A DNA stretch of 64,000 nt from Alphaproteobacteria bacterium (GTDB lineage Bacteria > Pseudomonadota > Alphaproteobacteria > Micavibrionales > Micavibrionaceae). Within the stretch, counting starts at the first letter, position 1; every line of letters begins with the position of its first letter. The DNA lies in assembly GCA_009995045.1 (NCBI GenBank), contig JAACQG010000009.1:1-64000 (forward strand), read 5' to 3'. The notes beneath the pieces were generated by a model. That model had not been told where the DNA came from and made no database searches. It saw nothing but the letters and a program-made list of their open reading frames with translations. The position numbers were made by a program, and so were the translations under genes. This document shows, piece by piece, positions 41,896 to 59,018 of the stretch.

Positions 41896-42028
41896 CGCGT
41901 AATCGGCGAACTGTTCCTTAAAGATACGATCCCCGCGAAGCAAACCGTAGGTTTGTTCGTACACAAAAGCTTGGCGGCAGGCGTTAAATCGCGTAATCCG
42001 CAAATTGTTCCTTAAAGATACGATCCCC
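41896..42028. repeat. 39-bp direct repeat: duplicated 3' end of nadK
   Basis: The segment at 41990-42028, which encodes the end of NAD kinase (GDRIFKEQFADYAI), recurs at 41896-41934 with about four mismatches and would encode GDRIFKEQFADYAVW. The copies are 94 bases apart (start to start) and the distal one lies beyond the nadK stop, so it looks like a partial tandem duplication or a remnant of a longer gene end. Confidence 0.75.
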
Positions 42029-42754
42029 TAAAGTGTTCTCATCATCAAAGAGGAGAGCCTTGGTGACATCCGCTGATTCTTGAATATATACCTCGCGCAC
42101 ATCGCGTACTTCTTTGGAATCGGCGGTCACCGAAACGGGGCGTTCGACGGGGTTGATAATCTCAAAGCGTATCTTCTTATCATTGCGCACCAGCGCCCCT
42201 GGCCAATGGCGCGGACGAAAAACAGAGATCGGCGTGATCGGCATGATATTCGCCGTCAGCGGTAAAATCGGCCCACCCGCAGAAGAGTTATAAGCCGTAC
42301 TGCCAACGGGCGTAGAGACCAAAACCCCATCGCACACCAATTCTTTCAGGCGCAATACATCATTAATATAAATCTTAATCTTCGCGGAATTATGTGTCTC
42401 CCGCAAAACGGAAACCTCATTAAACGCAACAAGCTTGTGCGATTCACCGTGTTTATCAATGGCGGTCATCTCAAGCGGGTGAATGGTAAAGCGTTTGGAT
42501 TTTTCAATCCGCTCCAGCAATCCCTCACGCTTATAAGTGTTGAGCAAAAACCCAAGCGTCCCAAGGTTCATCCCGAAAATCGGCGCGGCGAAATCGGCAT
42601 AATCATGCAGCGCATGCAACATCGTACCATCCCCGCCAAGCACGCAAATCAAATCGGCTTTCTCTGGCTCAACATGGCCGTATAAACCCTTAAGCTCTGC
42701 CAAAGCCTGCTGCGCCCTCGGTTTATGTCTGGCGGCGTAAAATGAAATATTCAT
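41984..42754 (-). CDS. nadK: NAD kinase
   Basis: NadK phosphorylates NAD+ to NADP+. The 256-aa protein has the substrate motif LGGDGTMLHALHDY, FGMNLGTLGFLLN, the FNEVSVLRE conserved Asn-Glu, and STPVGSTAYNSSAGGPI. Its C-terminal peptide is duplicated in the downstream intergenic region (see the repeat), suggesting that the gene end was rearranged. It starts 3 bases after the pyrE stop, so the HTH-PyrE protein and NadK are co-expressed. Confidence 0.93.
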   Translation of the reverse strand: MNISFYAARHKPRAQQALAELKGLYGHVEPEKADLICVLGGDGTMLHALHDYADFAAPIFGMNLGTLGFLLNTYKREGLLERIEKSKRFTIHPLEMTAIDKHGESHKLVAFNEVSVLRETHNSAKIKIYINDVLRLKELVCDGVLVSTPVGSTAYNSSAGGPILPLTANIMPITPISVFRPRHWPGALVRNDKKIRFEIINPVERPVSVTADSKEVRDVREVYIQESADVTKALLFDDENTLGDRIFKEQFADYAI

Positions 42755-42757
42755 GAT

Positions 42758-43663
42758 TTACACGCTCCAATTTTCTGGATCATGAAGGAAGCTCTCAACC
42801 GAGGCCAAGGTTTCATCATCAAAATAATCATGCGCGCGCGCGGCTTCCAAAACATCCCACCATGTCGCAATCGCATGTAATTTCACGCCCATTTGCTTCA
42901 CGTTCTTCTCGCTTTGCTTAAAGATACCGTAATGGAAAACAACGAAAGTATGATCCACCTTCGCGCCCGCATCACGCAGCGCATCAATAAAGATCTTCTT
43001 GCTGCCGCCATCGGTTTGCAAATCTTCAACCAAAATCACTTTTGGTTTGCCTTTAGAGGGTAAATGCCCCTCAATCTGCGCCATGCGGCCATATCCCTTT
43101 GGCTCTTTACGCACGTATATCATCGGCTTTTCAAGGCGCTCGGCAATAAACGCGCCATATGGAATACCCGCAGTCTCGCCGCCGGCAACGCTGTCGATAT
43201 TCTCAAAGCCCACCTCATCGCTCAATATCTGCGCGCCATAATCCATCAGGCGTTTACGCTCATCCGCAAATGAAATCAGGCGGCGACAATCAATGTAAAC
43301 CGGGCTTTGGCGGCCAGATTTTAATGTGTACGAGTTTTTCGCATTGAACAAAACAGATTCGGTTTCAATCAAAATCCTCGCCGCATCAAGCGCCATCTCT
43401 TTACGCGACAGCGACGTAAAATTCTGTCGCCCCCCATCATCAATCAACGATATAAAATCGCTCATCGTAGAATCGGTCACGGATAATATCTTGGAGATAC
43501 TCTCCGTCGACGGCCACCGTAGCTTCCCATCAGGGCTGACGCGCTTGCTTTTGTTAAACGATGTCGGATCAAGCCCCGCTTTAATGGCTAGTCCTGACGG
43601 TGAGAAACCTTTACTGGCCGCGAGGCGTTCAATGGCTGTCCAAATATCTGAGTGAGTCAACAT
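42758..43663 (-). CDS. pyrE: HTH-orotate phosphoribosyltransferase fusion
   Basis: A 301-aa protein of two parts in one uninterrupted frame. Residues ~88-301 are PyrE, which converts orotate and PRPP to OMP: MALDAARILIETESVLFNAK is the family's normal beginning, with SGRQSPVYIDCR, catalytic VRKEPKGYGR, and PRPP-binding VILVEDLQTDGGSK. Residues ~1-78 are a helix-turn-helix domain (SPSGLAIKAGLDPTSFNKSKR then RWPSTESISKILSVT) that closely resembles the DNA-binding part of alphaproteobacterial S24-peptidase phage-type repressors; here PyrE replaces the peptidase. An internal PyrE start at residue 88 lacks a properly spaced ribosome-binding site. Two operator-like palindromes lie at and just upstream of the start codon, which suggests autoregulation (inference). 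Confidence 0.85.
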   Translation of the reverse strand: MLTHSDIWTAIERLAASKGFSPSGLAIKAGLDPTSFNKSKRVSPDGKLRWPSTESISKILSVTDSTMSDFISLIDDGGRQNFTSLSRKEMALDAARILIETESVLFNAKNSYTLKSGRQSPVYIDCRRLISFADERKRLMDYGAQILSDEVGFENIDSVAGGETAGIPYGAFIAERLEKPMIYVRKEPKGYGRMAQIEGHLPSKGKPKVILVEDLQTDGGSKKIFIDALRDAGAKVDHTFVVFHYGIFKQSEKNVKQMGVKLHAIATWWDVLEAARAHDYFDDETLASVESFLHDPENWSV

Positions 43664-43715
43664 AGGAGGATAGTCCCATTTTGGCGCGCAAAGGTAAATA
43701 AGAATATTTTCCTAT
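43662..43715 (-). promoter_or_regulatory. two operator-like palindromes at the HTH-pyrE start
   Basis: ATAGGA-N6-TCCCAT (43662-43679) overlaps the pyrE start codon, and ATAAGA-N6-TCCTAT (43698-43715) lies 36 bases upstream (centre to centre). Each matches ATAGGA-N6-TCCTAT in 11 of 12 positions. The perfect version is in the capsid promoter at 48042-48059. I do not see a convincing -35/-10 pair for either divergent gene; a TTGACT at 43723 faces the particle genes without a well-spaced -10. Confidence 0.6.
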
Positions 43716-43812
43716 TTTTATCTTGACTTCGCTCAAATTTTATATCATAAACGAGAACATAAAAGGAACATCTATATTTAAAAACAGAGAAAAAGAAGAA
43801 GGACAAAAGCGC

Positions 43813-44265
43813 ATGAACAGCCAAAACCATTGCTCACAAACAAAAACTGCCGCATCGCCATATGCATTAAACGACACAACGCCATTCGAAAGCGCGCAAG
43901 AGGCTTGGTTCTGGTTCATGGCGGCGCAGGATGCAAAAAATGATGGGGCTAAGTTTGTCGCGGGGGCTGGTTTGTATAAACGCCCGTGTGAACCGATTGA
44001 TATTCTAAAGGTTCTTGATCGCCTCCACCGTAATCGCCGCCTCGATCGCGATCACCTTCTCGTGCTGCGCCATTATGGTCGCCGCCACATGCCGCCCGAT
44101 CAATTCCGCGCCAAAGAAAAACGCAGCTTTCATGTGTGGAGCGAGGCATTGGAGAGGATCGAAAAAGTGCTCATCGCTAAAGGAATCGTGGAGAGAAAAT
44201 CCACATTCGACTTCCCTGCCTATATCCAAAATGAAGCCGCTTTATTCGCAGGAGCCGCGCAATAA
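43813..44265 (+). CDS. unknown protein, first gene of the particle cluster
   Basis: A 150-aa, charged protein with an aromatic stretch FESAQEAWFWFMAAQDAK, a segment LYKRPCEPIDILKVLDRLHRN and LRHYGRRHMPPDQFRAKEKR. No domain that I can name. It has no signal peptide or membrane segment. The frame is open from TTG 43723, but AAGGA lies 10 bases before ATG 43813. It overlaps the next gene by one base (TAATG), so the two are coupled. The type of protein recalls small genes placed upstream of portal genes in alphaproteobacterial phage clusters; a DNA-binding or regulatory role is possible but unproven. Confidence 0.7.
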   Translation: MNSQNHCSQTKTAASPYALNDTTPFESAQEAWFWFMAAQDAKNDGAKFVAGAGLYKRPCEPIDILKVLDRLHRNRRLDRDHLLVLRHYGRRHMPPDQFRAKEKRSFHVWSEALERIEKVLIAKGIVERKSTFDFPAYIQNEAALFAGAAQ

Positions 44266-44699
44266 TGAGCCAAACACCGCACAATAAACCAAAAGCATGG
44301 GTCGTGTTCAGCGGCCAGGCCGACATAGCATGGCTTAAAATCCTCAAATCAGGATACCGCCATTGCTATGTGCTGCTAAGCGACGGCAAGCATTGGATCA
44401 CCATTGATCCGCTGTCGAATTATATGGATATCACGGTGCATGACCTGCCGCTTGATTTTAACCTGCCGCTATGTATGCAAAATCGCGGTCACATGATCAT
44501 GCCCGCCGATATACGCCACATCGATAAACAAGCGCCATGGATGCCCTTTAGCTGCGTTGAGGCGGTCAAGCGCGTTCTCGGCATTCATCGCCGACGCATC
44601 ATTACACCGTGGCAGCTTTATCGGTATTTGTGCAAACAGCAAACCGCCAAAACATGTCAACACGCATCATCACAAGGAGATTTCGCATGGGAAGCCTAA
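44265..44699 (+). CDS. unknown particle-cluster protein, possible permuted papain-like fold
   Basis: A 144-aa protein. It has GYRHCYVLLSDGKHWITIDP around residues 30-49 and PFSCVEAVKRVLGI around 95-107. The order His33, acidic/polar residues (His43, Asp48), then Cys97 at the start of a helix is the order seen in circularly permuted NlpC/P60 and LRAT-like enzymes, which suggests a cysteine hydrolase or acyltransferase; this is inference from spacing only. It is coupled to the genes on both sides (1-base and 13-base overlaps), directly upstream of the portal operon. Confidence 0.65.
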   Translation: MSQTPHNKPKAWVVFSGQADIAWLKILKSGYRHCYVLLSDGKHWITIDPLSNYMDITVHDLPLDFNLPLCMQNRGHMIMPADIRHIDKQAPWMPFSCVEAVKRVLGIHRRRIITPWQLYRYLCKQQTAKTCQHASSQGDFAWEA

Positions 44700-44947
44700 C
44701 ATCAGGGCCAAAAGCGCCCACCCCACAGCCACAAGTGGTCTATCTGCCGCAAACACCAAGCCCGACAACGCCCGTTCAAACACCGACCGCGCCAAGCGCG
44801 CAGGAAACATCGGCGGAAATACGAAAGCAAAACCTACTCGGTCGTGAACGCAGCCGTTTCGGCACAATCCAAACCAGCTTTCGCGGCTTGCTAGGCCTGT
44901 CTGATACAGGCGGCGCGCAATCACGCAAGACATTATTAGGAGAATAA
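44687..44947 (+). CDS. small phage structural-cluster protein
   Basis: An 86-aa protein, Pro/Thr/Gln-rich in its first half (likely disordered) and ending RSRFGTIQTS...RKTLLGE, an ending I associate with small proteins encoded just before podovirus portal genes. An AAGGAGA ribosome-binding site lies 6 bases upstream of ATG 44687. It overlaps the preceding gene by 13 bases and ends 1 base before the portal gene. Confidence 0.65.
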   Translation: MGSLTSGPKAPTPQPQVVYLPQTPSPTTPVQTPTAPSAQETSAEIRKQNLLGRERSRFGTIQTSFRGLLGLSDTGGAQSRKTLLGE

Positions 44948-44948
44948 A

Positions 44949-46574
44949 ATGCCAGCATCCCAAAAACAGCCACATGACAATGACGCGCTCAAAGCGCTTC
45001 AGCTAAAGATGGCATTCATCCTCAAGCGTTTCGACGCCGCCCATAAAAAGCGTAAAAATTGGGAAAGCCTATGGGATGAATGCTACGATTACGCCCTGTC
45101 ACAGCGCGGCGGATTCACATCATCCCCCGTCAGCGGTGGCAAACGCACCCAAGATATATACGACGCAACCGCCATGGACGCCGCCGACCAACTTGCCTCA
45201 AGCATGCTTGGCAATTTAACGCCGACATGGTCGCAATGGTTCGGCCTAAAACCCGGCCCTGATTTAACCGATGCCGAGGCCGAGCGCCTCGCACCGATTT
45301 TGGAAAAAGCCGCCAAAACAATTCAGGATCATTTCGACCGCTCAAATTTCGCCGTGGAAATTCACCAATGTTACCTCGACCTGATTGTCGGCGGCACAGC
45401 GAGTATGAATTTCGAAGAATCACAAATCGGCAGTTTCTCCGCGTTTAAATTCTCCGCCACACCGCTCACGCATATTGTTTTGGAGGAGGGCGATAACGGC
45501 TATCTTGATGGTGCGTTTCGCCAGATGAGATTAACGCTCGACCAAATCACATCGCGCTACCCCAATGCCGCGATCCCTGCGGAGATATTGAAACGCGCCG
45601 CGCAAAACCCGCAAGAGACATTCAAGATTTTGGAATCGGTTCTGCCTGATGCGCTGATTTATGAATATCACGCGTTGTTGATGGAAGATGAGGACAGCCC
45701 CGTCCTCCTTGCGACAGGGAAATTTGCGCAAAGCCCCGTGATCTCATTTCGCTGGCTCAAATCACCGGGTGAAATTTACGGACGCTCGCCCGTGATGAAA
45801 GCATTGCCCGATATCAAAACCGCCAATAAGGTCGTGGAGCTAGTCCTTAAAAACGCCTCTATCGCGGTCACGGGGATCTGGCAAGCCGATGATGATGGCG
45901 TCCTGAACCCCGCCAATATCGAGCTAACCCCTGGCAGCATCATCCCCAAGGCGATCGGCTCAAAAGGCCTGCAGCCGCTGGACATGCCCGGTCGTTTCGA
46001 TATCTCTCAGCTTGTCCTCGAAAGCCTACAATCGCGCATCCGTCACGCATTGCTTGCCGATAAGCTCGCCCCCGTTGCATCACCAAAAATGACCGCGACC
46101 GAGGTGATCGAACGCAGCGCGGAAATGTCGCTTTTGCTTGGTGCAACATATGGTCGCCTGCAATCCGAGCTTTTAACACCGCTCATCAAACGCGCCTTCG
46201 CCATCCTCAAACGCCGCGGTGAAGTGCCCGATATCGATCTTGATGGACGATTGGTCGTGGTCGATTACCGCTCACCGCTGGCGCGCAGCCAAGGGCAAAA
46301 GAACGTGCAAAACACGCTGAGCTGGATTTCGTCCGTCCTCGCCATGGGGCCTGAAGCCTCCGCCGCAGTAAATCTGCCGCAAGCCGCAAGGTTCTTGGGT
46401 GACGCGCTGGGCGTGCCGAGTGATCTGATCCGAAAGGATATCCCGCAATTGAATTTGGGCGATCTGGTCAAAGCCATTGATCCAACTATTGCCGCCGAGA
46501 ATGCGCCAACGCCAACGCCAAAACAAACCGCAACACCCAAACCAGAAAAAGAGAAAATAGGAGAACCAGTATGA
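44949..46574 (+). CDS. podovirus portal (head-tail connector) protein, T7 gp8-like
   Basis: The portal ring is the DNA gate of the capsid. The 541-aa protein fits the bacteriophage head-to-tail connecting family: N-terminal helix RFDAAHKKRKNWESLWDECY, DIYDATAMDAADQLASSMLGNLTP, WFGLKP, FNFE-type core (TASMNFEESQIGSF), RWLKSPGEIYGRSPVMKALPDI, and a C-terminal SAEMSLLLGATYGRLQSELL. Length is near T7 gp8 (536 aa). The last ~30 residues are a Pro/Thr/Lys tail. Its stop overlaps the next gene (ATGA). Confidence 0.9.
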   Translation: MPASQKQPHDNDALKALQLKMAFILKRFDAAHKKRKNWESLWDECYDYALSQRGGFTSSPVSGGKRTQDIYDATAMDAADQLASSMLGNLTPTWSQWFGLKPGPDLTDAEAERLAPILEKAAKTIQDHFDRSNFAVEIHQCYLDLIVGGTASMNFEESQIGSFSAFKFSATPLTHIVLEEGDNGYLDGAFRQMRLTLDQITSRYPNAAIPAEILKRAAQNPQETFKILESVLPDALIYEYHALLMEDEDSPVLLATGKFAQSPVISFRWLKSPGEIYGRSPVMKALPDIKTANKVVELVLKNASIAVTGIWQADDDGVLNPANIELTPGSIIPKAIGSKGLQPLDMPGRFDISQLVLESLQSRIRHALLADKLAPVASPKMTATEVIERSAEMSLLLGATYGRLQSELLTPLIKRAFAILKRRGEVPDIDLDGRLVVVDYRSPLARSQGQKNVQNTLSWISSVLAMGPEASAAVNLPQAARFLGDALGVPSDLIRKDIPQLNLGDLVKAIDPTIAAENAPTPTPKQTATPKPEKEKIGEPV

Positions 46575-46867
46575 TATTCGACCTCATGAAACCACGATAC
46601 GAATTGCCGATCACCCCTGCGGAAAAGGGCTTAACCTACGCTCAGCCGGAACCCGGAAAAATTGAGAGGCGCGACATCGAAAAAACTTTTGCTCGCCTAT
46701 TCTCAACCGATGACGGCCAAAAAGTCCTCGCCCACCTACAGGTCATAACCTTTCAACGGGCAATGGGGCCGGGCGTTGCCGATGAGCATTTACGCTATAT
46801 CGAGGGACAACGCTCCATGGTCGCAACCATCCTGCGCCTCATCGACCGTGGCAGAAAACCGAGATAG
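46571..46867 (+). CDS. Bbp19-like phage protein
   Basis: A 98-aa protein. IEKTFARLFSTDDGQKVLAHLQ followed by EHLRYIEGQRSMVATILRLIDRG matches the pattern of Bordetella phage Bbp19-type proteins, small virion-cluster proteins found beside portal genes in podoviruses. Function unknown. It overlaps the portal gene by 4 bases. Confidence 0.65.
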   Translation: MIFDLMKPRYELPITPAEKGLTYAQPEPGKIERRDIEKTFARLFSTDDGQKVLAHLQVITFQRAMGPGVADEHLRYIEGQRSMVATILRLIDRGRKPR

Positions 46868-46908
46868 TCAAAACCCAAATTTAATACTCAACCAAAGGAG
46901 AAAACCAA

Positions 46909-47520
46909 ATGACAAACTTACTCATCGAAGATGTCGACCCATCCATCGTCCCCGACAAATTCAAAAACCCGGAAACAGGGGCAATCCGCCTCGATGCGCT
47001 TGTGAATTCATACGGGGAATTGGAAAAGAAAATGTCGGAAAAACCAACGCATAACGCCCCCGCATCGCATGAGGATTATTGCGTTAATTGCGACCACGGC
47101 ATGTTCCAACCCGACAATGACATCAACCAACGCCTCCACGCCAAGGGCATGAGCCAAGAACAGGTGCAGGAAGTCTATGATCTTGCGGCTGAAAAAATGG
47201 TGCCAATGGTCAAACAAATCGCGGGCGATTTCAGCGCCGATCAATGGAAAGAAGTCTCCCGCCAGCTATTGGCATTTGGAAACCGCAACCTTCCCGCTGA
47301 TGTGCTTGAAAATCTATCAAGCTCCTATGAGGGTGTGCTTGCGCTGCATAAAATGATGCAATCCGAAGAACCATCAATGAAAAAACAAACCGCCAACCCA
47401 TCGAAAACAGGCAGCGAAGATTTACAATCCATGATGCGTGATCCCAAATATTGGCGTGACAAAGATCCCGCCTTTGTTAAAAAGGTGACCGAGGGATTCC
47501 AAACGATATACGGTGAATAA
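46909..47520 (+). CDS. capsid scaffold-like protein, T7 gp9-like position
   Basis: A 203-aa, acidic, helical protein between portal and capsid, the place of the T7 scaffold. The start PDKFKNPETGAIRLDALVNSYGELE is typical of phage capsid assembly proteins, and the C-terminus MMRDPKYWRDKDPAFVKKVTEGF is a recurring scaffold-like ending. A middle block has three close Cys/His residues (DYCVNCDHGMF). AAAGGAG lies ~8 bases before ATG 46909. A strong terminator follows, so capsid transcription needs its own promoter. Confidence 0.78.
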   Translation: MTNLLIEDVDPSIVPDKFKNPETGAIRLDALVNSYGELEKKMSEKPTHNAPASHEDYCVNCDHGMFQPDNDINQRLHAKGMSQEQVQEVYDLAAEKMVPMVKQIAGDFSADQWKEVSRQLLAFGNRNLPADVLENLSSSYEGVLALHKMMQSEEPSMKKQTANPSKTGSEDLQSMMRDPKYWRDKDPAFVKKVTEGFQTIYGE

Positions 47521-47527
47521 CAAGATA

Positions 47528-47558
47528 AGCCCCGATCACATGATTGGGGCTTTTTTTT
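47528..47558 (+). terminator. terminator after the scaffold gene
   Basis: Stem AGCCCC/GGGGCT (47528-47533 and 47546-47551) with extra pairing inside the loop, followed by eight T's. It closes the first transcription block of the particle cluster (43813-47520). Confidence 0.85.
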
Positions 47559-47559
47559 A

Positions 47560-47949
47560 TTAATGCGCGAGCTGGGATTCTGCGAATTTTGAAGAGACAT
47601 AATCATCAACGACCAATTGCAAACCTTTGCGCATTGTGTCGCTTAAAGGATCAAATTCAAATGCAATGCGATCATTGCTCTTGCGAACAACCCGCGCAGT
47701 ATGCGGCAAATCAATCACATCATTGCTTAGCTTAAATTTCATGGTGACATCAACCGTTGTGTTCACACCAAAGCCCCGCGAATCGCCGTTGACAGCAACA
47801 CCGCCCATTGACCAATTTTCAACAGGATAAATTTGACCATCAATAACAACAGCTGAATTATCACAAGAACGTCGCGAAAACCGCCTGCGCGTGGAATATT
47901 GCTCATTGGTGTTTTCCGCTTTTAAACCTGAAAAGAGTGTTTCAAACAT
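47560..47949 (-). CDS. PilZ-domain c-di-GMP-binding protein
   Basis: A 129-aa protein with a PilZ domain: the RxxxR-type cluster RRRFSRR near residue 22 and the second motif NWSMGGVAV (matching D/NxSxxG), so c-di-GMP binding is expected. The frame is open to 48021, but a GGGGAGC ribosome-binding site lies 5 bases before ATG 47949, giving MFETLFSGLKAENTN as N-terminus. It is antisense inside the virion cluster, between scaffold and capsid genes, and is not part of any known virion plan. The plausible reading is an inserted accessory gene that reads host c-di-GMP. Confidence 0.88.
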   Translation of the reverse strand: MFETLFSGLKAENTNEQYSTRRRFSRRSCDNSAVVIDGQIYPVENWSMGGVAVNGDSRGFGVNTTVDVTMKFKLSNDVIDLPHTARVVRKSNDRIAFEFDPLSDTMRKGLQLVVDDYVSSKFAESQLAH

Positions 47950-48033
47950 ATGTGCTCCCCGTGCATGTCTATTATTGATTAAATGCATTATAAGGATTCG
48001 ATCATAAAAATGCAAGTTCACACAAAATAACCC

Positions 48034-48062
48034 TTGACATTATAGGAATAATATCCTATATT
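48034..48062 (+). promoter_or_regulatory. capsid promoter with perfect palindromic operator
   Basis: TTGACA (48034-48039), exactly 17 bases, TATATT (48057-48062). The spacer and -10 are filled by a perfect palindrome TATAGGA-N6-TCCTATA (48041-48060), an ideal place for a repressor. Related palindromes lie in the HTH-pyrE upstream region and in the murB promoter. Capsid translation starts 183 bases downstream. Confidence 0.85.
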
Positions 48063-48091
48063 TAAATCATCAACACCACCAATGTATCTTA

Positions 48092-48150
48092 AAACATGCG
48101 GTTAACGCGGATTGCACCCCTACGGTGTTTATTCATGCGCCCGCATGTTT
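48092..48150 (+). ncRNA. structured leader RNA of the capsid gene (putative)
   Basis: In the ~180-base untranslated leader, AAACATGCGG (48092-48101) pairs perfectly with CCGCATGTTT (48141-48150); the loop has a nested CACC/GGTG pairing. This is unlike a terminator because no T-run follows and the capsid gene is further downstream. It could be a cis-acting RNA control element or a mRNA stabiliser; no known RNA family is recognised. Confidence 0.4.
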
Positions 48151-48245
48151 CTCGCGTATGGCCGTTCTTAAACGATGAATGAAAACCACAGAGGGCCGAG
48201 CCTCAACCCCCGAACATAACCCATTAAAAACAAAAGGATAAATTT

Positions 48246-49079
48246 ATGTCTACATCAATAGATCAGGCCTTCATCAAGCAATTCGAACGCGAAGTGCATG
48301 AAGCCTATCAGCGTCAGGGATCAAAACTGAGAAACACTGTACGCACCATTTCAAACGTCAATGGCAGCTCGGCAGTCTTCCAAAAAGTCGGCGTGGGAAC
48401 GGCCTCAACAAAATCCACACACGGTCTCGTCCCTGTTATGAACCTCGATCATTCCAATATCGAAGTCACACTTCAAGATTATTACGCGGGCGATTGGATT
48501 GACCGCCTTGACGAGCTAAAAATCAACATCGACGAACGCCAAGTCATCGCCAGCGCAGGTGCAAATGCATTGGGCCGTAAAACCGATGAACTGATCATCG
48601 ACCAACTTGCCAGTGCGTCGGCGACCACAATTGCGGATGGCAATATCGGCCTCACCAAAGATAAAATCCTCAACGCATTCGAAAGCTTTGGCGAAAATGA
48701 TGTGCCTGATGACGGCCAACGTTTTTGTATCGTCGGATGGAAGCAATGGAGCGAGCTACTCTCAATCGATGAATTCGTAAAGGCGGACTACATCGGCAAT
48801 GACGCCCTGTCATTTGCATCCATCACACAAGCCAAAATGTTCCTCGGCACAATATTCATTCCGCATTCCGGCCTTCCGATTGATGGAAATGATATCCGAT
48901 CATGTTTCTGGTATCACAAAACCGCAGTCGGTCACGCAAGCGCATCCGATGTGGAAACAGATGTCAGCTGGCACGGCGACCGCGCCGCACATTTTGTGAA
49001 CAACATGATGAGCCAGGGCGCAGGCCTAATCGACGAAAACGGAATCATCACAATCAATTGTGACGAAACTCCCGATTAA
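48246..49079 (+). CDS. putative major capsid protein
   Basis: A 277-aa protein in the T7 gp10 position. It begins MSTSIDQAFIKQFEREVHEA, has QVIASAGANALGRKTDELII in the middle and HSGLPIDGNDIRSCFWYHKTAVGHA and FVNNMMSQGAGLIDENGII near the end, consistent with HK97-fold podovirus capsid proteins that lack a cleaved delta domain. Identification uses position, length and overall pattern; I see no single decisive motif. AAAGGA lies 8 bases before ATG 48246. It has its own promoter. Confidence 0.75.
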   Translation: MSTSIDQAFIKQFEREVHEAYQRQGSKLRNTVRTISNVNGSSAVFQKVGVGTASTKSTHGLVPVMNLDHSNIEVTLQDYYAGDWIDRLDELKINIDERQVIASAGANALGRKTDELIIDQLASASATTIADGNIGLTKDKILNAFESFGENDVPDDGQRFCIVGWKQWSELLSIDEFVKADYIGNDALSFASITQAKMFLGTIFIPHSGLPIDGNDIRSCFWYHKTAVGHASASDVETDVSWHGDRAAHFVNNMMSQGAGLIDENGIITINCDETPD

Positions 49080-49098
49080 ATCTTAATCCCCTCCCTGT

Positions 49099-49170
49099 GT
49101 CATCCTGAAGGGCTTTAGACCTGAAGGATCTCCTAAATCAATGAGATCCTTCGCTGCCGCTCAGGATGAC
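49099..49170. repeat. dispersed GTCATCC-type palindrome, copy 3 (inside the particle cluster)
   Basis: A long inverted repeat: GTCATCCTGA (49099-49108) pairs with TCAGGATGAC (49161-49170), with an inner AGGATCTC/GAGATCCT pair. Same core as the copies at 1008 and 4834. It sits between the capsid gene and the next head gene, showing that the element has entered host core and phage-like genes alike. Confidence 0.8.
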
Positions 49171-49199
49171 ATTCTTTAAATTTGAAAGGAACACCCATC

Positions 49200-49439
49200 A
49201 TGGCTTTTAACCCATCAGATATAAGCGTACTCGCCTACGCCAATAACTTCACGCTGTGGCACGTCGCCACAACGGATGCCGACGTAACAACCGAAGGCTA
49301 TTTCGATACAGCCGCCGAATTGTTGCGCGTCAATGACCTCGTGATCGCGAATGTCGATACCGATGGAACCCCCGCCACGACGTTCTATGTCGTCACCGGC
49401 AATAGCGGCGGCAATGTGACAATCGCAGCTTACGCATAA
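49200..49439 (+). CDS. small head protein, decoration-like
   Basis: A 79-aa, beta-rich protein right after the capsid gene: MAFNPSDISVLAYANNFTLWH...YFDTAAELLRVNDLVIANVDTDGTPATTFYVVTGNSGG. The pattern resembles small phage structural proteins found beside podovirus capsid genes; a decoration role is inferred. ATG 49200 is chosen over ATG 49182 because GAAAGGA lies ~8 bases upstream. Confidence 0.65.
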   Translation: MAFNPSDISVLAYANNFTLWHVATTDADVTTEGYFDTAAELLRVNDLVIANVDTDGTPATTFYVVTGNSGGNVTIAAYA

Positions 49440-49655
49440 GCGCGATATCCTCCAAAGCATAGCATTGCCATTGGCTGGAGCGCGGATCATCCCTTCGATC
49501 ACCACGCAGCTCGCCAGCCCTATGCCATGGATCCATCGTATACGACCCTTGGCCGCCGCAAGATCTGCGGCCAAATAACGGTGCAGCCCTGACCCTTCCT
49601 GTCCTCTCACAAAAGGGCAGGGCTGCATTTTTTTTAATTCATAAGGAGACCCAAT
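49440..49655 (+). other. non-coding gap with strong terminator (49583-49635)
   Basis: A 216-base gap between head and tail genes with no credible ORF. It ends with a long terminator: GCAGCCCTG pairs with CAGGGCTGC and, after a bulged A, CCCTT pairs with AAGGG (49583-49597 with 49613-49626), followed by eight T's. The stretch before it has several inverted segments (for example TTGGCCGC/GCGGCCAA near 49549-49574) and may be a structured transcript. Confidence 0.6.
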
Positions 49656-50225
49656 ATGGCACTCAACGACGTGGCATTGTGTTCACGCGCGCTCATTCGC
49701 ATTGGCGCCGCACCCATTACATCATTCAACGGCGGCACCGCCGAAAGCGAAATCGCAGGGGCGCTATACGGCTCAACCCGTGACGCGCTGCTCTCTGCCT
49801 ATCGCTGGAGTTTCGCCAGCGCGCAGCTTGCCCTCTCACAACGCGCAGCCGACCCCATCGCCGATTACAGCTTCGCTTACCAACTGCCCAATGACTTCCT
49901 GCGCGCCGTCTCGGCTGGAACAGGTGCGCGGGGGCGTGGCCTCAATTACCGCATCGCCCGAGGCGCGCTTAACACCAACGCAAGCGCAGTTGTGCTGACC
50001 TATATTTTTCGCCCCGATGAGGCAGAATTCCCGCCTTATTTTGACCAAGCGCTCATCGCGCGGCTATCGGCGGAATTCACAATCCCCATCACCGAAAGCA
50101 CAAGCCGCGCCGAAAGCCATTTCCGTATCGCCGAAAACGAATACGAACGCGCCCGCCAAATCGACGCCCAACAAGATACTCCCAATAGAATCGAAAACTT
50201 TTCTCTCATTGATGTGCGTGATTAG
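49656..50225 (+). CDS. tail tubular protein A, T7 gp11-like
   Basis: A 189-aa adaptor that joins portal and nozzle in podoviruses. MALNDVALCSRALIRIGAAPITSF at the N-terminus, DALLSAYRWSFASAQLAL, YQLPNDFLRAV and EAEFPPYFDQALIARLSAEF are the usual blocks of this family. Strong AAGGAG ribosome-binding site. Length is close to T7 gp11 (196 aa). Confidence 0.88.
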   Translation: MALNDVALCSRALIRIGAAPITSFNGGTAESEIAGALYGSTRDALLSAYRWSFASAQLALSQRAADPIADYSFAYQLPNDFLRAVSAGTGARGRGLNYRIARGALNTNASAVVLTYIFRPDEAEFPPYFDQALIARLSAEFTIPITESTSRAESHFRIAENEYERARQIDAQQDTPNRIENFSLIDVRD

Positions 50226-50256
50226 GGATTCAATAATAGCTATATATGCATTTATA

Positions 50257-50285
50257 TTGACTTTTTGATTGTGTGTGTTTACATA
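50257..50285 (+). promoter_or_regulatory. promoter of the inserted gene at 50293
   Basis: TTGACT (50257-50262), 17 bases, TACATA (50280-50285). The predicted transcription start is within a base or two of ATG 50293, so the mRNA would be leaderless; no ribosome-binding site precedes the ATG, which supports this. Confidence 0.5.
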
Positions 50286-50292
50286 TTTTTAA

Positions 50293-50790
50293 ATGAGCGC
50301 AGAACGCAGCAATCCCGAACTTGATTTATCATCTGTATTCCGTCATCCGGAAATGGAAAATCTTGTGTATGCATTGCTGAGTGACCCGAGCCATTTCTTT
50401 GACGTTTTATCAGAAACTGACTTATCTGTATTTGATGATGGAAACCCAGAAATGCAGAACAGAGTTTTATCTGCGGGGTTCAAAAAAGCTGCAAATCCGG
50501 GGGTCGTTGACATTGTAACCTTACTGCGTGCACATCCTAGAGAAACGATAAGTCTTTTCTTATGGGCGAAAGAACTATCCGAAGGTGTGCCTGATTTAGA
50601 AGCCAGCATTAAACCAGATGATCCAATCATGGAGTTTTTCGCCAAAGTTGGTTTCTTGAACGAACGGGCGACTGGCCCTGCTAACTCGGTCTTTGAAATC
50701 TTGGGGCTTGAAATCCCTGAGCGTATGGGACGAATGAGAACACCAAGGCGTCAACAATTGCTTGATATTCAAGGGCCTTCACGCTCATAA
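50293..50790 (+). CDS. unknown protein, moron-like insertion between tail tube genes
   Basis: A 165-aa, acidic, mostly helical protein that I do not recognise (begins MSAERSNPELDLSSVF, ends LLDIQGPSRS). No signal peptide or membrane segment. It interrupts the conserved tail A-tail B pair, has its own promoter and terminator, lacks a Shine-Dalgarno site and is more AT-rich than its neighbours: the usual marks of a moron, a cargo gene expressed independently of the virion genes. Function unknown. Confidence 0.65.
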   Translation: MSAERSNPELDLSSVFRHPEMENLVYALLSDPSHFFDVLSETDLSVFDDGNPEMQNRVLSAGFKKAANPGVVDIVTLLRAHPRETISLFLWAKELSEGVPDLEASIKPDDPIMEFFAKVGFLNERATGPANSVFEILGLEIPERMGRMRTPRRQQLLDIQGPSRS

Positions 50791-50823
50791 AACGCGCTGC
50801 AAAGATAATGTAATCCCCGAAAG

Positions 50824-50847
50824 CCCCGCCATCAAGCGGGGTTTTTT
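50824..50847 (+). terminator. terminator after the inserted gene at 50293
   Basis: Stem CCCCGC/GCGGGG (50824-50829 and 50836-50841) with a 6-base loop and six T's. Confidence 0.85.
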
Positions 50848-50881
50848 CATGCCCACATTTCAGTCTTAAAAAGGAATAACA

Positions 50882-52780
50882 ATGACCCGAATTCGTGAAA
50901 CAAAAACCACATTCACCGCTGGCGAGGTTTCGCGTGAGCTCCTTGGTCGCGGTGATCTTCGTGCCTATGAAAACGGTGCGCTTGCCCTGCGCAATGTGTT
51001 CATCAACCCGACGGGCGGCGTCACCCGTCGTGCCGGTCTTGGCTATATTGACACCGCACCCGGCGACGGCAAGCTAATCGCGTTTGAATTCAATAGCGAG
51101 CAAACATCGCTCCTTGTCATCACTGATGAACAAATTGATATCTATACAGGCGGCGTGAAAGAGGCGAGCATTTCGGCCCCGTGGACAGCGGCGCAAATCG
51201 ACCAGCTCGCATGGACGCAAAGCGCCGATACGCTGTTGCTCACCCACCCCGATGTGTCGCCGAAAAAGCTGGTGCGCAGTGCCAATGCTTCATGGAGCCT
51301 CAACGATTGGGTGTTCTTCATCAAAGATAACATCAAAAGCCAGCCCTATTACAAATTTGCCGCCAGCAATGTCACCCTCACACCCAGCGCAACCAGTGGA
51401 AGCATCACCCTCACCGCGTCTGAGGGTGTTTTTACGCTCGCGCATGAAGGAACACGCTTGCGCGTTGCGGGCAAGGAAGTCGAAGTCACCGATTACGACT
51501 CTCCAACCGTTATAAGGGTAAGTGTGCTGGAAGAATTACCAAACACCGACCCGACAATTGATTGGTTCGAACAAGCCTTTAGCGCCGCCCGCGGATATCC
51601 AGTGACCGTGGCATTCCACCAAGATCGCCTTGTCATCGGTGGCTCGCGTGATTTGCCCAACCGCCTCTGGTTTTCAAAATCTGGAGATTTGTTCAATTTT
51701 GACCTGGGCGAGGGATTGGACGATGAAAGCATCGAGTTTTCAATCCTCTCCGATCAGGTCAATGCAATACGCGGCATATTTTCCGGTCGCCATCTACAGG
51801 TTTTTACATCGGGCGCGGAATGGCAAGTCACGGGAGATCCGCTCACGCCGTCATCGGTGCAAATTCGCCGCCAAACCCGCATCGGATCGCGCATCGACAG
51901 ATACGTGCCGCCAACAAATGTAGACGGCGCAACGTTATTCATCGCGCGCAACAAACAAGAGGTGCAGGAATTCCTTTATACCGATCTGGAGCAAGCCTAT
52001 AAATCTAGCGACCTCGCGCTCTTGTCAAAAAGCGTGATCATCGACCCTATAGATATGGATTACGATTCAAAACGCAGGCTTTTATTCCTCGTGCGCAGCG
52101 ACGGAAAATTTGCCGCCCTGACTGTGTTTCGCGCGGAAAGCGTGGCAGCATGGACACTGCATAATACGCTGGGGCAGGTTAAATCGGTTGCGGTTGTCGG
52201 CGATGATGTCTTCATGCTGGTTGAGCGCGGCGGCGCGTTCCTCGTTGAGCAGCTAGACGACGCCCTCAACCTCGACAGTGCATTAACGGGCGAGATTGCC
52301 TCCCCCGCAACCCAATGGTCAGGATTAGATCATCTGAACGGCGAGAGCGTTTCAATTGTGGCCGATGGTGAGGTTAAGCAAAACCAAATCGTCACCAGCG
52401 GCCAAATCACATTGGACGAGCCCGCCAAGGCAATCCAAATCGGTTTGCCATACACCCATATCATCGAACCCCTCCCGCCAAGCGAGCTGGGCGCGGCAGG
52501 GGGGGGGCGGCGTATTCGTCTGGTCGAGGGGCTGTTTCGCCTGCAAGATACACAAAGCTTGCGGCTGGATGTCGGGCGCGGGCTGCATGATATTGCCCTG
52601 CGTCAGCTTGGCGAAGACCCCATCCTCGACAGCGCCCCACCCAGCGTCAGCGGCGATATCCGTGTGCGCGCATTGGGCTGGCAACCTGACGGTACGCGAG
52701 CCTTGTGGCGCATCGAACAAGACGTACCACTAGCCTTCACCCTGCTATCGGTCACCACCGAGATTAAGGTGAATGATTAA
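50882..52780 (+). CDS. tail tubular protein B (nozzle), T7 gp12-like
   Basis: A 632-aa nozzle protein. The N-terminus TFTAGEVSRELLGRGDLRAYENGALALRNVF-type block and NPTGGVTRRAGLGYI are characteristic of this family, followed by LAWTQSADTLLLTHPDV, PVTVAFHQDRLVIGGSR, RLWFSKSGDLFNF and HLQVFTSGAEWQVTGDPLTP. The length is shorter than T7 gp12 (794 aa) but normal for related prophage proteins. AAGGA precedes ATG 50882. A run of nine G's occurs within the gene (52498-52507 region), a slippage-prone site, but the frame continues open. Confidence 0.88.
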   Translation: MTRIRETKTTFTAGEVSRELLGRGDLRAYENGALALRNVFINPTGGVTRRAGLGYIDTAPGDGKLIAFEFNSEQTSLLVITDEQIDIYTGGVKEASISAPWTAAQIDQLAWTQSADTLLLTHPDVSPKKLVRSANASWSLNDWVFFIKDNIKSQPYYKFAASNVTLTPSATSGSITLTASEGVFTLAHEGTRLRVAGKEVEVTDYDSPTVIRVSVLEELPNTDPTIDWFEQAFSAARGYPVTVAFHQDRLVIGGSRDLPNRLWFSKSGDLFNFDLGEGLDDESIEFSILSDQVNAIRGIFSGRHLQVFTSGAEWQVTGDPLTPSSVQIRRQTRIGSRIDRYVPPTNVDGATLFIARNKQEVQEFLYTDLEQAYKSSDLALLSKSVIIDPIDMDYDSKRRLLFLVRSDGKFAALTVFRAESVAAWTLHNTLGQVKSVAVVGDDVFMLVERGGAFLVEQLDDALNLDSALTGEIASPATQWSGLDHLNGESVSIVADGEVKQNQIVTSGQITLDEPAKAIQIGLPYTHIIEPLPPSELGAAGGGRRIRLVEGLFRLQDTQSLRLDVGRGLHDIALRQLGEDPILDSAPPSVSGDIRVRALGWQPDGTRALWRIEQDVPLAFTLLSVTTEIKVND

Positions 52781-52786
52781 TGATAC

Positions 52787-52816
52787 TTGCTTTATAGTCT
52801 CAATTGTGATTACATT
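52787..52816 (+). promoter_or_regulatory. weak candidate promoter of the gene at 52837
   Basis: TTGCTT (52787-52792), 18 bases, TACATT (52811-52816), 20 bases before the next start codon. Weak match, supported mainly by the autonomous look of the downstream gene. Confidence 0.35.
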
Positions 52817-52836
52817 ATGAAAAATATAGGTGAGAA

Positions 52837-53199
52837 ATGGCTATAAGCATAAAATTTGACGAGCAATCAGTTCTGCCGGAATTGGCGCGACAATTAGTTG
52901 ATACATTGAAGAAAAACCCAGCAGCAGTTGTGTTGGGCATAGAAGATGATGGATCGAGAGCAGATATAGTCTTTGGTTTGGATGGCACTCCTTCAACAGA
53001 AGAGCGATTTATATATACGGACGTAGATGTATTGGTTGGGGCAAAGGCGCATTGTGCAAGTAAAGAGCCCGAGTTTACGCCCCAGTTACAAGGTTACATT
53101 GAGAGAGTATCCGCACTTGTGAATAGTCCTGCGGGGCCGATAAGAAGCCCAGGATCTTTAGCGCGTCAAGCACCAGAGCCATCAACGTCATTAGATTAA
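52837..53199 (+). CDS. unknown protein, second moron-like insertion
   Basis: A 120-aa protein that I do not recognise (begins MAISIKFDEQSVLPELARQL). It has an alpha/beta pattern (AAVVLGIEDDGSRADIVFGL, then RFIYTDVDVLVGAKA) and a Pro/Ser-rich tail. AT-rich compared with its neighbours, with a TAGGTGAG ribosome-binding site and its own terminator. It lies between the tail nozzle and internal protein genes, so it is probably cargo and not part of the virion. Confidence 0.62.
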   Translation: MAISIKFDEQSVLPELARQLVDTLKKNPAAVVLGIEDDGSRADIVFGLDGTPSTEERFIYTDVDVLVGAKAHCASKEPEFTPQLQGYIERVSALVNSPAGPIRSPGSLARQAPEPSTSLD

Positions 53200-53224
53200 A
53201 CAAAATTACTAAGCATTAACCAAA

Positions 53225-53251
53225 AGCAGCCTTTTTAGGCTGCTTTTTTTT
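53225..53251 (+). terminator. terminator after the inserted gene at 52837
   Basis: Stem AGCAGCC/GGCTGCT (53225-53231 and 53238-53244), 6-base loop, then a run of seven more T's; A's before the stem extend the pairing. Confidence 0.88.
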
Positions 53252-53273
53252 ATTCCAAAAAAGGAGAAAACAC

Positions 53274-53774
53274 ATGGGAGCAATCACCCCAATTGCAAGC
53301 GGCCTAACAACGCTTGTCGGTGCGCTTGGCACTGCAAACCAACTCGCGGGGACAATCCAAACTCTGAGCGGTAATAGCCCGCAGCGCCAAGAACAAGATT
53401 TAGCGCTCAAGCAATTGCAGGAGCGTCAAACACTGAGCGCCGCCCAGCTCGCGCAGGACAACGCGCTAGAGCGCGAGCGCATCGCCTTGCAAGGGGCGCA
53501 AGATGAGGACGATCGCCGCGCCGCTCTACGCCGCGCTGTCGCCCGTCAACGCGCCAGCTTCGGCGCGAGCGGTATCAGCCAAGATAGCGGCGGCTCATCA
53601 CAGGCGGTCTTGCTTGGTCTGTTCGATGAAACAGAAACCGACCTCGCACAGCGCGAGCAGCTCGACACACTGCGAAACCGCGCCCTTGATTTAGACAGCG
53701 CCCAAAACAAAAGCCTTAACCTGCTTCAGGCAACCCAGCTCAAACAACGCCAAGACCTCAACCGCTTATTCTAG
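53274..53774 (+). CDS. internal virion protein-like, T7 gp14 position
   Basis: A 166-aa protein: a Gly/Ala-rich hydrophobic N-terminus (ITPIASGLTTLVGALGTANQ), then a long Gln/Ala/Arg-rich helix with coiled-coil character (LKQLQERQTLSAAQLAQ), and a Gly/Ser turn SFGASGISQDSGGSSQAV. Layout and position before the tail spike resemble the short internal/ejection proteins of podoviruses. The large T7-type ejection proteins gp15 and gp16 are missing from this cluster. Confidence 0.65.
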   Translation: MGAITPIASGLTTLVGALGTANQLAGTIQTLSGNSPQRQEQDLALKQLQERQTLSAAQLAQDNALERERIALQGAQDEDDRRAALRRAVARQRASFGASGISQDSGGSSQAVLLGLFDETETDLAQREQLDTLRNRALDLDSAQNKSLNLLQATQLKQRQDLNRLF

Positions 53775-53784
53775 GAAATTCATC

Positions 53785-55806
53785 ATGCCCGAACACGTTA
53801 AAGTGCCGGACATAACGCCAATCACGCGTTATGTCGCTAATGGCACGCAAACTGATTTCTCATACCCATTCCCGATTTTCGCCTCCGAAGACCTCGCTGT
53901 CTATATTGATGGCGCACGCCAGGCAAGCGGCTATACGATCAATGGCGCAGGACAAAGCATGGGCGGAAGCGTTACATTTGATACCGCGCCCGCTATGGAT
54001 TCCGTCCTCACATTTGCCCGTGAGCTAGCCATCGAGCGTATAACCGACTTCCTTGAAGGCGGGGATTTCAGCGCGCAATCCATCAATAACGAACTTGACT
54101 ATATGGTCGCCGCCCTCCAACAGGTCAGCCTTGAAAATACGGCAATGCTCCGCTATAGCGACAATGAAGCCCCCGCGAAAACCGAGCTACCCGCGCGCAA
54201 CCTCCGCGCCAATAAAGGCCTCGGCTTTGACGGCAATGGCAACCCGATCGCGCTAGATTTAAGCGGCGCGGCTGCGTCCCCCGATTTCACCGCAAGCGGG
54301 ACAGGCGCATCAACACGCACCGTCACCGATAAGCTGGGCGACGCGGTATCAGTTAAAGATTTCGGCGCAAAAGGGGACGGCCTGACCAATGACACCATCG
54401 CCATTCAAAATGCCCTGGCCGCAAATGACAGCGTATTCTTGCCCGCGGGTGAGTATCTTATCAGTGGCACAATCACGATCACGGCGCGAAAAGCGTTAAT
54501 CGGCGCAGGGCAGAAATCGGTGCTGAAATGCAATGGTCAAAATTTCAACGCCGTTGAGATCACCGAGGATCATGCCGCCCTCCATAATTTGCGCATCATC
54601 GGCGGTGATATCGGCATTAAGCTGTTTGGCAAAACCCGCCCATGCGTACAAACCGCCATCAGTGATATAACGATTGTCGGCCCCAATATCGGCGTACAAT
54701 TAGATGGCTATAACAACACCAATTTCCCCTGCTATTGGAACACGTTAAGCCGCGTCCTTGTGGAGCAGTTTAAGCTGCACGGTTTCCACCTCACGCGCAG
54801 CGGGGCGGGGGACACGCCAAACGCCAATAAATTCCACGCATGCCGCGCATATTCCCTCGGCGAGCCATCAACGGGGCATGGCTTTTACATCGAAGAAGGG
54901 CGCTTTAACAACTCCCTCATCGACTGCGAAGCCAATGTCAACGGCACCGCACAAGGGTGTTTCACGATTGGCGCGGGCTGCGATAAAACCTTGCTCATTA
55001 ATCCCTATGCGGAGAGTTTTAACAGCGTCCCCAATATCAAGCTTGAGGCAGGATCAATCGAAACCTCGATCTTTAATCTGCTTTCGGTCAGTGACGGCGC
55101 GGCCATTTGGGATTTGTCCGGCGGGGAATATACCGCCTATAACGCGGGCTTTCCTTATAAGAACCGCATGCAGCGCACAACCTGTACGGACATGACCGCC
55201 ACCCTACAAAGATATGACACTGAATTTATAGATACGCAAGGTATCGTATCGCTCGATACATCCCATTCTGTGCATCTTGTGTCCAGCTTCGGCGGGGCGC
55301 TAACCGTTAATCTTCCCAATGCGGCGGATGCGGTTGGGGCAATGATGGTCATCAAGAAAACCGACAGCTCAAGCAACGTCATCACCATCAAAGAAACTGG
55401 GGGCGCTGGCCCCGATGGGCGTGATTATTTCCTCGGCGCGGAAAATGATTTCATGATGGCGCAATCCAATGGCGCGGAGTGGTTTGTCTTATCCTCAAAC
55501 CGTGCGCCCGGCAATACGCGCTTTTTCGACGGCAGCGGAACCTATGACATCGACATGGCGGTCGATAGCTATTTGCTCTCGTCATTCGGCGGCGCAATGA
55601 CCGCCCGCCTGCCGCCCGCGAATTCATCACAGGCAATCGGACGCACCATCACGATCAAGAAAACCGACCCCTCATCCAATACCATCACGGTCACGGAGCA
55701 GGGCGCAACCGGCCCCGATGGATACGCACAGCCATTAAACAGCCAATATAATGCCATCACAGTCGTATCAAATGGCGGCCAATGGTACATCATCAACCGC
55801 TTCTAG
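53785..55806 (+). CDS. tail spike with T7 gp17-like head-binding domain and pectate lyase-like repeat
   Basis: A 673-aa receptor-binding protein. Residues ~1-150 are a gp17-like particle-binding domain (TQTDFSYPFPIFASEDLAVYIDG, ERITDFLEGGDFSAQSINNE). Residues ~183-450 form a right-handed beta-helix beginning VSVKDFGAKGDGLTNDTIAI, the pectate lyase-3-like start of many tail spikes. The C-terminus carries two copies of a ~80-residue unit (VSSFGGALTVNLPNAADA...IKKTDSSSNVITI and LSSFGGAMTARLPPANSS...IKKTDPSSNTITV). It probably binds or cleaves a surface polysaccharide. Confidence 0.85.
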   Translation: MPEHVKVPDITPITRYVANGTQTDFSYPFPIFASEDLAVYIDGARQASGYTINGAGQSMGGSVTFDTAPAMDSVLTFARELAIERITDFLEGGDFSAQSINNELDYMVAALQQVSLENTAMLRYSDNEAPAKTELPARNLRANKGLGFDGNGNPIALDLSGAAASPDFTASGTGASTRTVTDKLGDAVSVKDFGAKGDGLTNDTIAIQNALAANDSVFLPAGEYLISGTITITARKALIGAGQKSVLKCNGQNFNAVEITEDHAALHNLRIIGGDIGIKLFGKTRPCVQTAISDITIVGPNIGVQLDGYNNTNFPCYWNTLSRVLVEQFKLHGFHLTRSGAGDTPNANKFHACRAYSLGEPSTGHGFYIEEGRFNNSLIDCEANVNGTAQGCFTIGAGCDKTLLINPYAESFNSVPNIKLEAGSIETSIFNLLSVSDGAAIWDLSGGEYTAYNAGFPYKNRMQRTTCTDMTATLQRYDTEFIDTQGIVSLDTSHSVHLVSSFGGALTVNLPNAADAVGAMMVIKKTDSSSNVITIKETGGAGPDGRDYFLGAENDFMMAQSNGAEWFVLSSNRAPGNTRFFDGSGTYDIDMAVDSYLLSSFGGAMTARLPPANSSQAIGRTITIKKTDPSSNTITVTEQGATGPDGYAQPLNSQYNAITVVSNGGQWYIINRF

Positions 55807-55817
55807 AAAGGCCACAT

Positions 55818-56120
55818 ATGCTCAAAATTGAACAGGGAATGCGGCGCGATATCGCCGTATTTCTGCCCAATGCCATGAAAACCACAATCCAATCTTATAT
55901 CAGCTTTTCCGAAGAGCAAGCCACAAACCCAGAAGGTGACGTGTCGCCCAAATCATTCAAAGAACATCACGATGCCTGCAAAGTCTGCATCGCCCATATC
56001 GAGCTTCTCATCAAGCTCGCGCAATGGGCGGATATTCCGCCGCCTGAATTTGAGGGCGAGTTGGAAAACGCCATTTTACGATCAGTCATCGAAAACGCAA
56101 ACGCCGAATTAGGACGCTAA
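55818..56120 (+). CDS. small protein before terminase, possible small terminase subunit
   Basis: A 100-aa helical protein (MLKIEQGMRRDIAVFLPNAM...HIELLIKLAQWADIPP). It is 3 bases upstream of the large terminase gene, where T7 encodes its small terminase (gp18), and the size fits. I see no clear DNA-binding helix-turn-helix, so the assignment is positional. AAAGG precedes ATG 55818. Confidence 0.5.
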   Translation: MLKIEQGMRRDIAVFLPNAMKTTIQSYISFSEEQATNPEGDVSPKSFKEHHDACKVCIAHIELLIKLAQWADIPPPEFEGELENAILRSVIENANAELGR

Positions 56121-56123
56121 GCC

Positions 56124-57650: not shown

Positions 57651-57660
57651 GAGACAGCCC

Positions 57661-57957: not shown

Positions 57958-58006
57958 GGCCTGTCCCCTTGGGCAATCATGAAATTAAAATAAAAGGAAT
58001 TCACAG

Positions 58007-58498: not shown

Positions 58499-58536
58499 TT
58501 AACCCGGAATTAGGAAAAATCGTTTAAGCTCAACCA

Positions 58537-58977: not shown

Positions 58978-59018
58978 CGATATTCGATATGACGGATATC
59001 AAAAAAAGGATATCCAAA

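Follow-up and report, generated by a model that had tools for sequence, protein, structure and literature searches.

A repressor-type helix-turn-helix domain fused to PyrE, with predicted operators at its own promoter and at an adjoining phage-like particle cluster in Micavibrionaceae

The window analysed here, a stretch of 64,000 nucleotides, contains on its minus strand one open frame in which a helix-turn-helix (HTH) domain is joined to orotate phosphoribosyltransferase (OPRT, PyrE). The stop codon of this gene is separated by 3 bases from the start of a NAD kinase gene, and the two are probably co-transcribed. The genes, domains and predicted promoter elements of this part of the locus are as follows:

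41984..42754, minus strand: NAD kinase gene directly 3' of the fusion (PF20143 and PF01513)
42758..43663, minus strand: HTH-PyrE fusion gene, one open frame, 301 aa
42764..43405, minus strand: orotate phosphoribosyltransferase domain, residues 87-300
43406..43429, minus strand: variable linker, residues 79-86 (from linker columns and pLDDT)
43430..43663, minus strand: RogA-type XRE/Cro-CI HTH domain, residues 1-78 (from AlphaFold models, fold matches, HTH_26 in relatives and dN/dS)
43663..43678, minus strand: predicted operator box B, TGGGACTATCCTCCTA, an exact match to TRGGA-N6-TCCTA, which spans the predicted -10 element and extends to the start codon
43670..43698, minus strand: predicted promoter of the fusion, read from the sequence, with -35 TTTACC (43693-43698) and -10 GACTAT (43670-43675)
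43699..43714, minus strand: predicted operator box A, with one mismatch to the pattern, adjoining the predicted -35

The fusion scores 315.5 bits against the PyrE equivalog NF001729, above the cut-off of 245, and its PyrE half has the OPRT fold. It is the only above-cut-off PyrE match in the genome, which holds one copy of OMP decarboxylase. Because a fold search with the whole protein was filled by phosphoribosyltransferases and was uninformative on the HTH, the HTH was modelled separately; this AlphaFold model and its fold matches revealed a five-helix XRE fold. HTH_26 reached 16.6 bits on the window's protein, under the Pfam cut-off of 22, and was matched in 22 of 24 relatives. In the linker region, AlphaFold gave low pLDDT at residues 77-79. 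The fusion is a real repressor-type HTH joined to PyrE in one frame, as an earlier note on this DNA had proposed, and open fusions were found 31 times.

Using the fusion as a query, we obtained matches in 98 of the 105 genomes of the family. The 31 full-length fusions come from 30 of these 105 genomes, representing ten genera, and (the window's own protein aside) are 58-73% identical to it. A second HTH match is absent from the fused genomes, except for G094, which has two fusions, and G070, where the second place is not listed. Each of the two HTH-PyrE fusions of G094 (L050; contigs C12 and C15) has its own divergent capsid cluster. Recurrence within a clade, which the same note had raised, was found in a PyrE tree of 82 rows, where 28 of the 31 fusions form one clade (100/93). 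On this tree the fused/split label has to change four times, and starred branches force three of these changes. Since its bootstrap had not settled, we give the origins of the fusion as probably at least two, one in the main clade and one in the G030/G073 lineage, with G096 unplaced. The PyrE-like matches of G049 and G090 are broken by stops and fall outside the fused clade. No full-length fusion was present in the 38 genomes of the order outside the family; a class-wide search of 385 genomes used the HTH alone as query. Among named genomes, the best 80 of at least 559 relatives included 14 that were fused, all of them listed as Alphaproteobacteria bacterium or Micavibrio sp.

Both halves show low dN/dS in nine chosen close pairs, with values of 0.009-0.080 for the HTH and 0.020-0.113 for PyrE (one pair undefined), several dS values being near saturation. 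The HTH value lies below that of PyrE in seven of the eight pairs with both defined. Invariant columns amount to 32 of 78 in the HTH, 0 of 17 in the linker and 58 of 216 in PyrE. Six of the 31 fusions have no ATG, GTG or TTG at reference residues 69-104, which argues against a PyrE-only product starting near residue 88 in those six. To judge from this conservation, the fusion is an old, selected architecture. A non-functional leftover HTH, a PyrE translated alone from an internal start, or an assembly error in the frame would agree with the sub-threshold HTH_26 score in the window; such a relic or artefact is nevertheless extremely improbable in view of the 31 open fusions, the purifying selection on the HTH, the six fusions that lack the internal start, and the conserved operators described below.

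In most of the other matching genomes of the family, pyrE and the HTH gave two separate matches, the HTH lying in a frame of usually ~205-255 aa. Peptidase_S24 was found in all ten split HTH proteins scanned (L031 and L133 being the same gene), and many split relatives carry the HTH-S24 gene directly upstream of pyrE, the ends of the two overlapping in L045 and L046. By eye, the S24 domains of L031, L033, L035, L039 and L041 contain the Ser, the Lys and the Ala-Gly cleavage site, which we take to be LexA/CI features, while the Ser is absent from those of L123 and L129. The proposed link of the HTH to alphaproteobacterial S24 repressors thus holds in the split relatives, which encode the same HTH with S24. 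None of the 31 fused loci retains any similarity to S24. Because the split relatives carry HTH-S24, often just upstream of pyrE, we infer that the source of the fusion is an HTH-S24 (LexA/CI-like) repressor gene that lost S24 and received PyrE in its place.

Five split relatives (L048, L049, L104, L105 and L106) have short HTH frames beside pyrE with no S24 match, L110 retains a weak, decayed S24 remnant in a short HTH frame beside pyrE, and in L089 the HTH frame is longer and likewise gave no S24 match. Such S24-less or S24-decayed frames are plausible intermediates. They also indicate that a sensor domain may be dispensable, which counts against the ligand-gated repression that we propose below. 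A phage origin for the HTH was rejected, as a search of 50,697 phage records gave no match; relatives of the HTH occur in 114 of the 385 class genomes, four of them from the window's family. Three genomes of one genus (G210, G329 and G499, 0.9 Mb) each have three short HTH frames of 87-130 aa, with no room for S24.

The predicted operator is a 16-bp palindrome, TRGGA-N6-TCCTA, which we counted when at least 9 of 10 positions agreed, with G allowed at position 2. It was found upstream of the HTH gene in 30 of 31 fused and 36 of 40 split cases, where shuffled sequences gave an expectation of 0.2 genes per set. Two boxes are present in 27 fused and 25 split cases, and 26 of the 27 two-box fused genes have them exactly 36 bp apart. 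In loci that separate HTH-S24 from pyrE, it is the HTH that keeps the boxes (L072, L074, L076, L078, L080, L084 and L086; weakly in L082). The simplest reading of two boxes over the fusion promoter would be autorepression, and the predicted operator pair is older than the fusion and survived the fusion event.

Direct control of pyrE as such was considered and rejected, since no site of at least 9 of 10 positions was found upstream of any of 16 pyrE genes that stand without a neighbouring HTH; this also makes the protein seem unlike a classical pyrimidine-pathway repressor. These genes comprised nine from the family and seven from families f2 and f6, after L085 (contig end) and L090 and L092 (stops in frame) had been dropped. 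One pyrE gene of this kind, L098, has an upstream site of 8 positions.

A podovirus-type particle cluster starts immediately beside the fusion and runs divergently from it. The features within it are:

43723..59534, plus strand: podovirus-type particle cluster as a whole
44949-46574: portal (phrog_332)
48034..48062, plus strand: predicted capsid promoter, TTGACA-17-TATATT, whose spacer contains the operator
48043..48058, no strand assigned: perfect operator palindrome in the predicted capsid promoter, TAGGAATAATATCCTA
48246-49079: capsid (PF19821)
49656-50225: tail protein
53785-55806: spike
56124-57650: terminase, T7-type
58007-58498: cell-wall hydrolase
58989-59534: GTA-type holin (PF11351)

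No integrase or replication gene was noticed among the cluster frames read, a part of which was scanned. The capsid gene was found in 104 of 143 genomes of the order, as a single copy in all but seven, and its identity within the family is mostly 70-90%. Its phage relatives, in 115 records, are all under 60% identical; the nearest named one is Pelagibacter phage EXVC031P, at 50.5%. The spread, single copy and high family identity of the capsid suggest a tamed, vertically kept element. The cluster is putatively a gene-transfer element. With its podovirus-type genes and GTA-type holin we take it to be unlike the RcGTA type, and it may represent a separate class of tamed particle.

Where the HTH and the capsid gene were both listed on one contig, they point away from each other in all 24 fused cases and in 38 of 39 split ones (a few capsids being partial and G094 counted twice), and 22 of the 24 fused cases lie within 9 kb. 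In G018 the fusion and the capsid are 78 kb apart, and the capsid promoter has a perfect site. The operator at 48043-48058 lies 187 bp upstream of the capsid gene start at 48246. We compared 41 capsid promoters, the window's and 40 fetched out of the 104 capsid-bearing genomes, and found the operator at 9 or more of 10 positions in 37 of them (20 of 21 fused, 17 of 20 split); by eye, TTGAC stands exactly nine bases 5' of it in 31 of these 37. The capsid promoters of G070, G061, G091 and G065 have no operator, and in G053, G056 and G096, all draft genomes, no capsid was found though the fusion is present. We counted both observations, like the distance in G018, against the explanation that we favour.

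Predicted operators thus fall inside both stretches that the earlier note had named for DNA binding, 43640-43720 and 48030-48070, which strongly supports a DNA-binding role, and their conservation in the capsid promoters upholds the particle cluster as a putative target. Judging by these patterns, the protein most likely serves as PyrE and, at the same time, as a repressor that controls its own gene and the particle cluster. The direction could also be reversed, with operator binding tuning the enzyme or its amount, so that the fusion would serve an autoregulated supply of PyrE and particle control would be inherited and secondary. The boxes kept at the fusion's own promoter in the three genomes where no capsid was found would fit this. 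We nonetheless consider it very unlikely, as the operator is kept in nearly all capsid promoters of fused genomes, and in split genomes with pyrE elsewhere the boxes and the HTH lie beside the cluster.

Several known proteins resemble the fusion. PurR of Bacillus subtilis combines a DNA-binding domain with a phosphoribosyltransferase (PRT) fold and has PRPP as effector; its PRT part is not known to be an active enzyme. In PutA, BirA and NadR, trigger enzymes with a DNA-binding domain of their own, a metabolic enzyme and a transcription regulator are found in one protein. We know of none among these three that represses a phage-like particle or is built on PyrE. GfcR of haloarchaea comprises an HTH and a PRT-like domain. 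PurR differs from the fusion in both its HTH type and its PRT, while the PyrE of the fusion is the sole above-cut-off copy of its genome; the PurR model TIGR01743 gave 17.7 bits on the fusion against a cut-off of 258.7. NF002620 ('OPRT-like') matched it weakly, with 34.1 bits against a cut-off of 115. The earlier statement that such an architecture is without precedent for PyrE was too strong, since GfcR, a PyrE-like transcription regulator, is encoded by pyrE1 (PMC11519228). GfcR is archaeal, activates sugar catabolism and is not known to have a particle link, whereas the fusion is a putative particle repressor. By this comparison, PurR and GfcR are analogues of the fusion. In the open-licence full text of PMC, no title or start of an abstract reported a PyrE-HTH fusion or joined gene transfer agents with pyrE, and no related paper was found for RogA with pyrimidine.

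The closest counterpart in control of a particle is RogA (CCNA_00080) of Caulobacter crescentus. As described in PMC9632790, it is a protein of 213 aa with an HTH and a LexA/CI-like domain that lacks key cleavage residues, it represses gafYZ and hence GTA production, GGAA-N4-TTCC occurs as an inverted repeat in its target promoters, and homologs are reported from across the alphaproteobacteria. Deletion of rogA raises gafY about 350-fold, according to Tran and Le (PMC11150451). The split relatives resemble RogA in their HTH plus S24-like architecture, size and alphaproteobacterial spread. The RogA repeats have the GGA-N6-TCC geometry of the operators described here, which is found in the putative target promoters of our set as well. 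RogA controls a prophage-like particle, as the fusion probably does; RogA acts through gafYZ, whereas the fusion's predicted operator lies in the particle promoter itself. RogA also keeps its S24-like domain, while the fusion has PyrE at that place. Because it is without S24, we regard the fusion as RogA-like in descent and action rather than as a RogA.

In OPRT, a loop from the adjoining subunit completes the active site (title of PDB 1oro), so a PyrE dimer can hold two HTHs and could in principle report its ligand state. Comparing fused and split PyrE, we found residue 115 to be Lys in 28 of 28 main-clade fusions and Thr in 41 of 43 split rows, and residue 187 to be Glu in 25 of 28 and Lys in 41 of 43, respectively. 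All 28 main-clade fusions have Tyr or His at residue 191, where the 12 split rows compared have Phe. The criterion for a fused/split difference singled out positions 114, 115, 124 and 187 only. Residues 115, 187 and 191 presumably lie in the substrate-binding and catalytic loops of PyrE, and the loop changes in the main fused clade suggest, without proving it, altered ligand handling. The fusions of G096, G073 and G030 lack both Lys115 and Glu187. Those of G073 and G030 (L029 and L030) have the PRPP-loop motifs QNHGSS and QNFGHS instead of QTDGGS, and these two genomes gave no second PyrE-like match with the fusion query.

The explanation that we favour, and consider rather probable as a whole, is that S24 was replaced by PyrE, that the operators at both promoters are bound, and that repression is gated by ligand. 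A RogA-like repressor would carry the host enzyme PyrE in place of the S24 (LexA/CI-type) domain, and the PyrE dimer would join two subunits whose paired HTHs bind the TRGGA-N6-TCCTA palindromes. Binding at the two boxes over its own promoter would repress the fusion gene, and hence PyrE supply, and binding at the main promoter of the adjoining tamed particle cluster would repress the cluster. PRPP, orotate and OMP at the dimer-interface active site would change the spacing or occupancy of the HTHs, and a shift in nucleotide or PRPP supply would relieve repression and lead to particle production and lysis. DNA binding, repression and dimer-based recognition are, taken jointly, highly probable. 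Gating of DNA binding by PRPP, orotate or OMP is proposed tentatively, the gating and its direction being least certain. That a biosynthetic enzyme sits where a phage-type master repressor had its sensor, with pyrimidine/PRPP status deciding between growth and lytic particle release, is put forward with slightly greater reserve.

The HTH could instead repress its own gene and the cluster, with a working PyrE providing nothing beyond dimerisation and steady expression; with no ligand gate, release would be set by repressor amount, dilution, proteolysis or other regulators. The operator and linkage evidence fits this equally well, HTH-only frames next to pyrE suggest that the HTH acts without a sensor, and the absence of invariant linker columns gives no hint of tight coupling. 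The changes at residues 115 and 187 across the main fused clade, and the hint from at least two probable fusion origins of a benefit beyond chance adjacency, speak against such a scaffold without proving the contrary, and we consider it rather unlikely.

To our knowledge, a repressor of a tamed phage particle that is joined to a housekeeping biosynthetic enzyme would be the first of its kind. Through the fusion, a host would be able to couple a domesticated phage to host metabolism, and particle release may be tied to nucleotide supply; a cell that lost the repressor would lose pyrimidine synthesis with it. In the staphylococcal Stl repressor (SaPIbov1), a phage dUTPase acts as antirepressor and the two are separate proteins, whereas here a biosynthetic enzyme is covalently fused; the fusion would be the covalent counterpart of the Stl-dUTPase link. 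The Caulobacter authors (PMC9632790) consider it probable that synthesis is triggered by external signals, 'possibly by inhibiting RogA'. With an enzyme of known ligands as the C-terminal domain of the repressor, the question of the release trigger becomes a direct biochemical test.

Copies of the operator elsewhere were compared with a reversed control. In the window's own genome, exact TAGGA-N6-TCCTA occurs at 10 sites versus 3 for the control, and with one mismatch at 41 versus 86, being rarer than the control, which counts against the favoured explanation. Exact sites exceed the control in some genomes only, with no excess in most of the 143 genomes of the order. Only the capsid/PilZ site recurs between genomes, apart from two weak matches between small ORFs, G000/G095 with 46% over 46 aa and G093/G095 (one genus) with 67% over 43 aa. 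A genome-wide regulon was rejected, since the exact sites of the own genome precede unrelated genes and sharing between genomes is near nil beyond capsid/PilZ; with so little sharing, we claim no conserved regulon beyond the particle promoter and autoregulation. Outside the order, exact GGA-N6-TCC was found upstream of 4 of 20 more distant HTH genes against 2.0 expected, with no clear enrichment; in eight of the 20, by eye, the best or second-best site lies at -51/-52, the position of box A.

Nine exact copies lie outside the window in its own genome (L051-L059), none of them within a frame and most at one set position in TTGACA-17-TATAAT-like promoters of unrelated genes, named by eye as ribosomal protein L13, pirin-like, prfC, S49 peptidase and others. 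Exact operators with a genome-typical spacer, such as TAGGATATATTTCCTA in G093, were likewise seen in operator-in-spacer promoters of G093 (L208-L220) and G030 (L221-L227). Within the particle cluster, a PilZ-domain gene (47560-48021, minus strand; PF07238, 3.3e-7) lies on the opposite strand, its start 21 bp from the operator at 48043. G030 and G093 likewise have it next to the capsid, with 44-53% identity. Its position adjoining the operator and its retention beside the capsid suggest that c-di-GMP may also touch the element.
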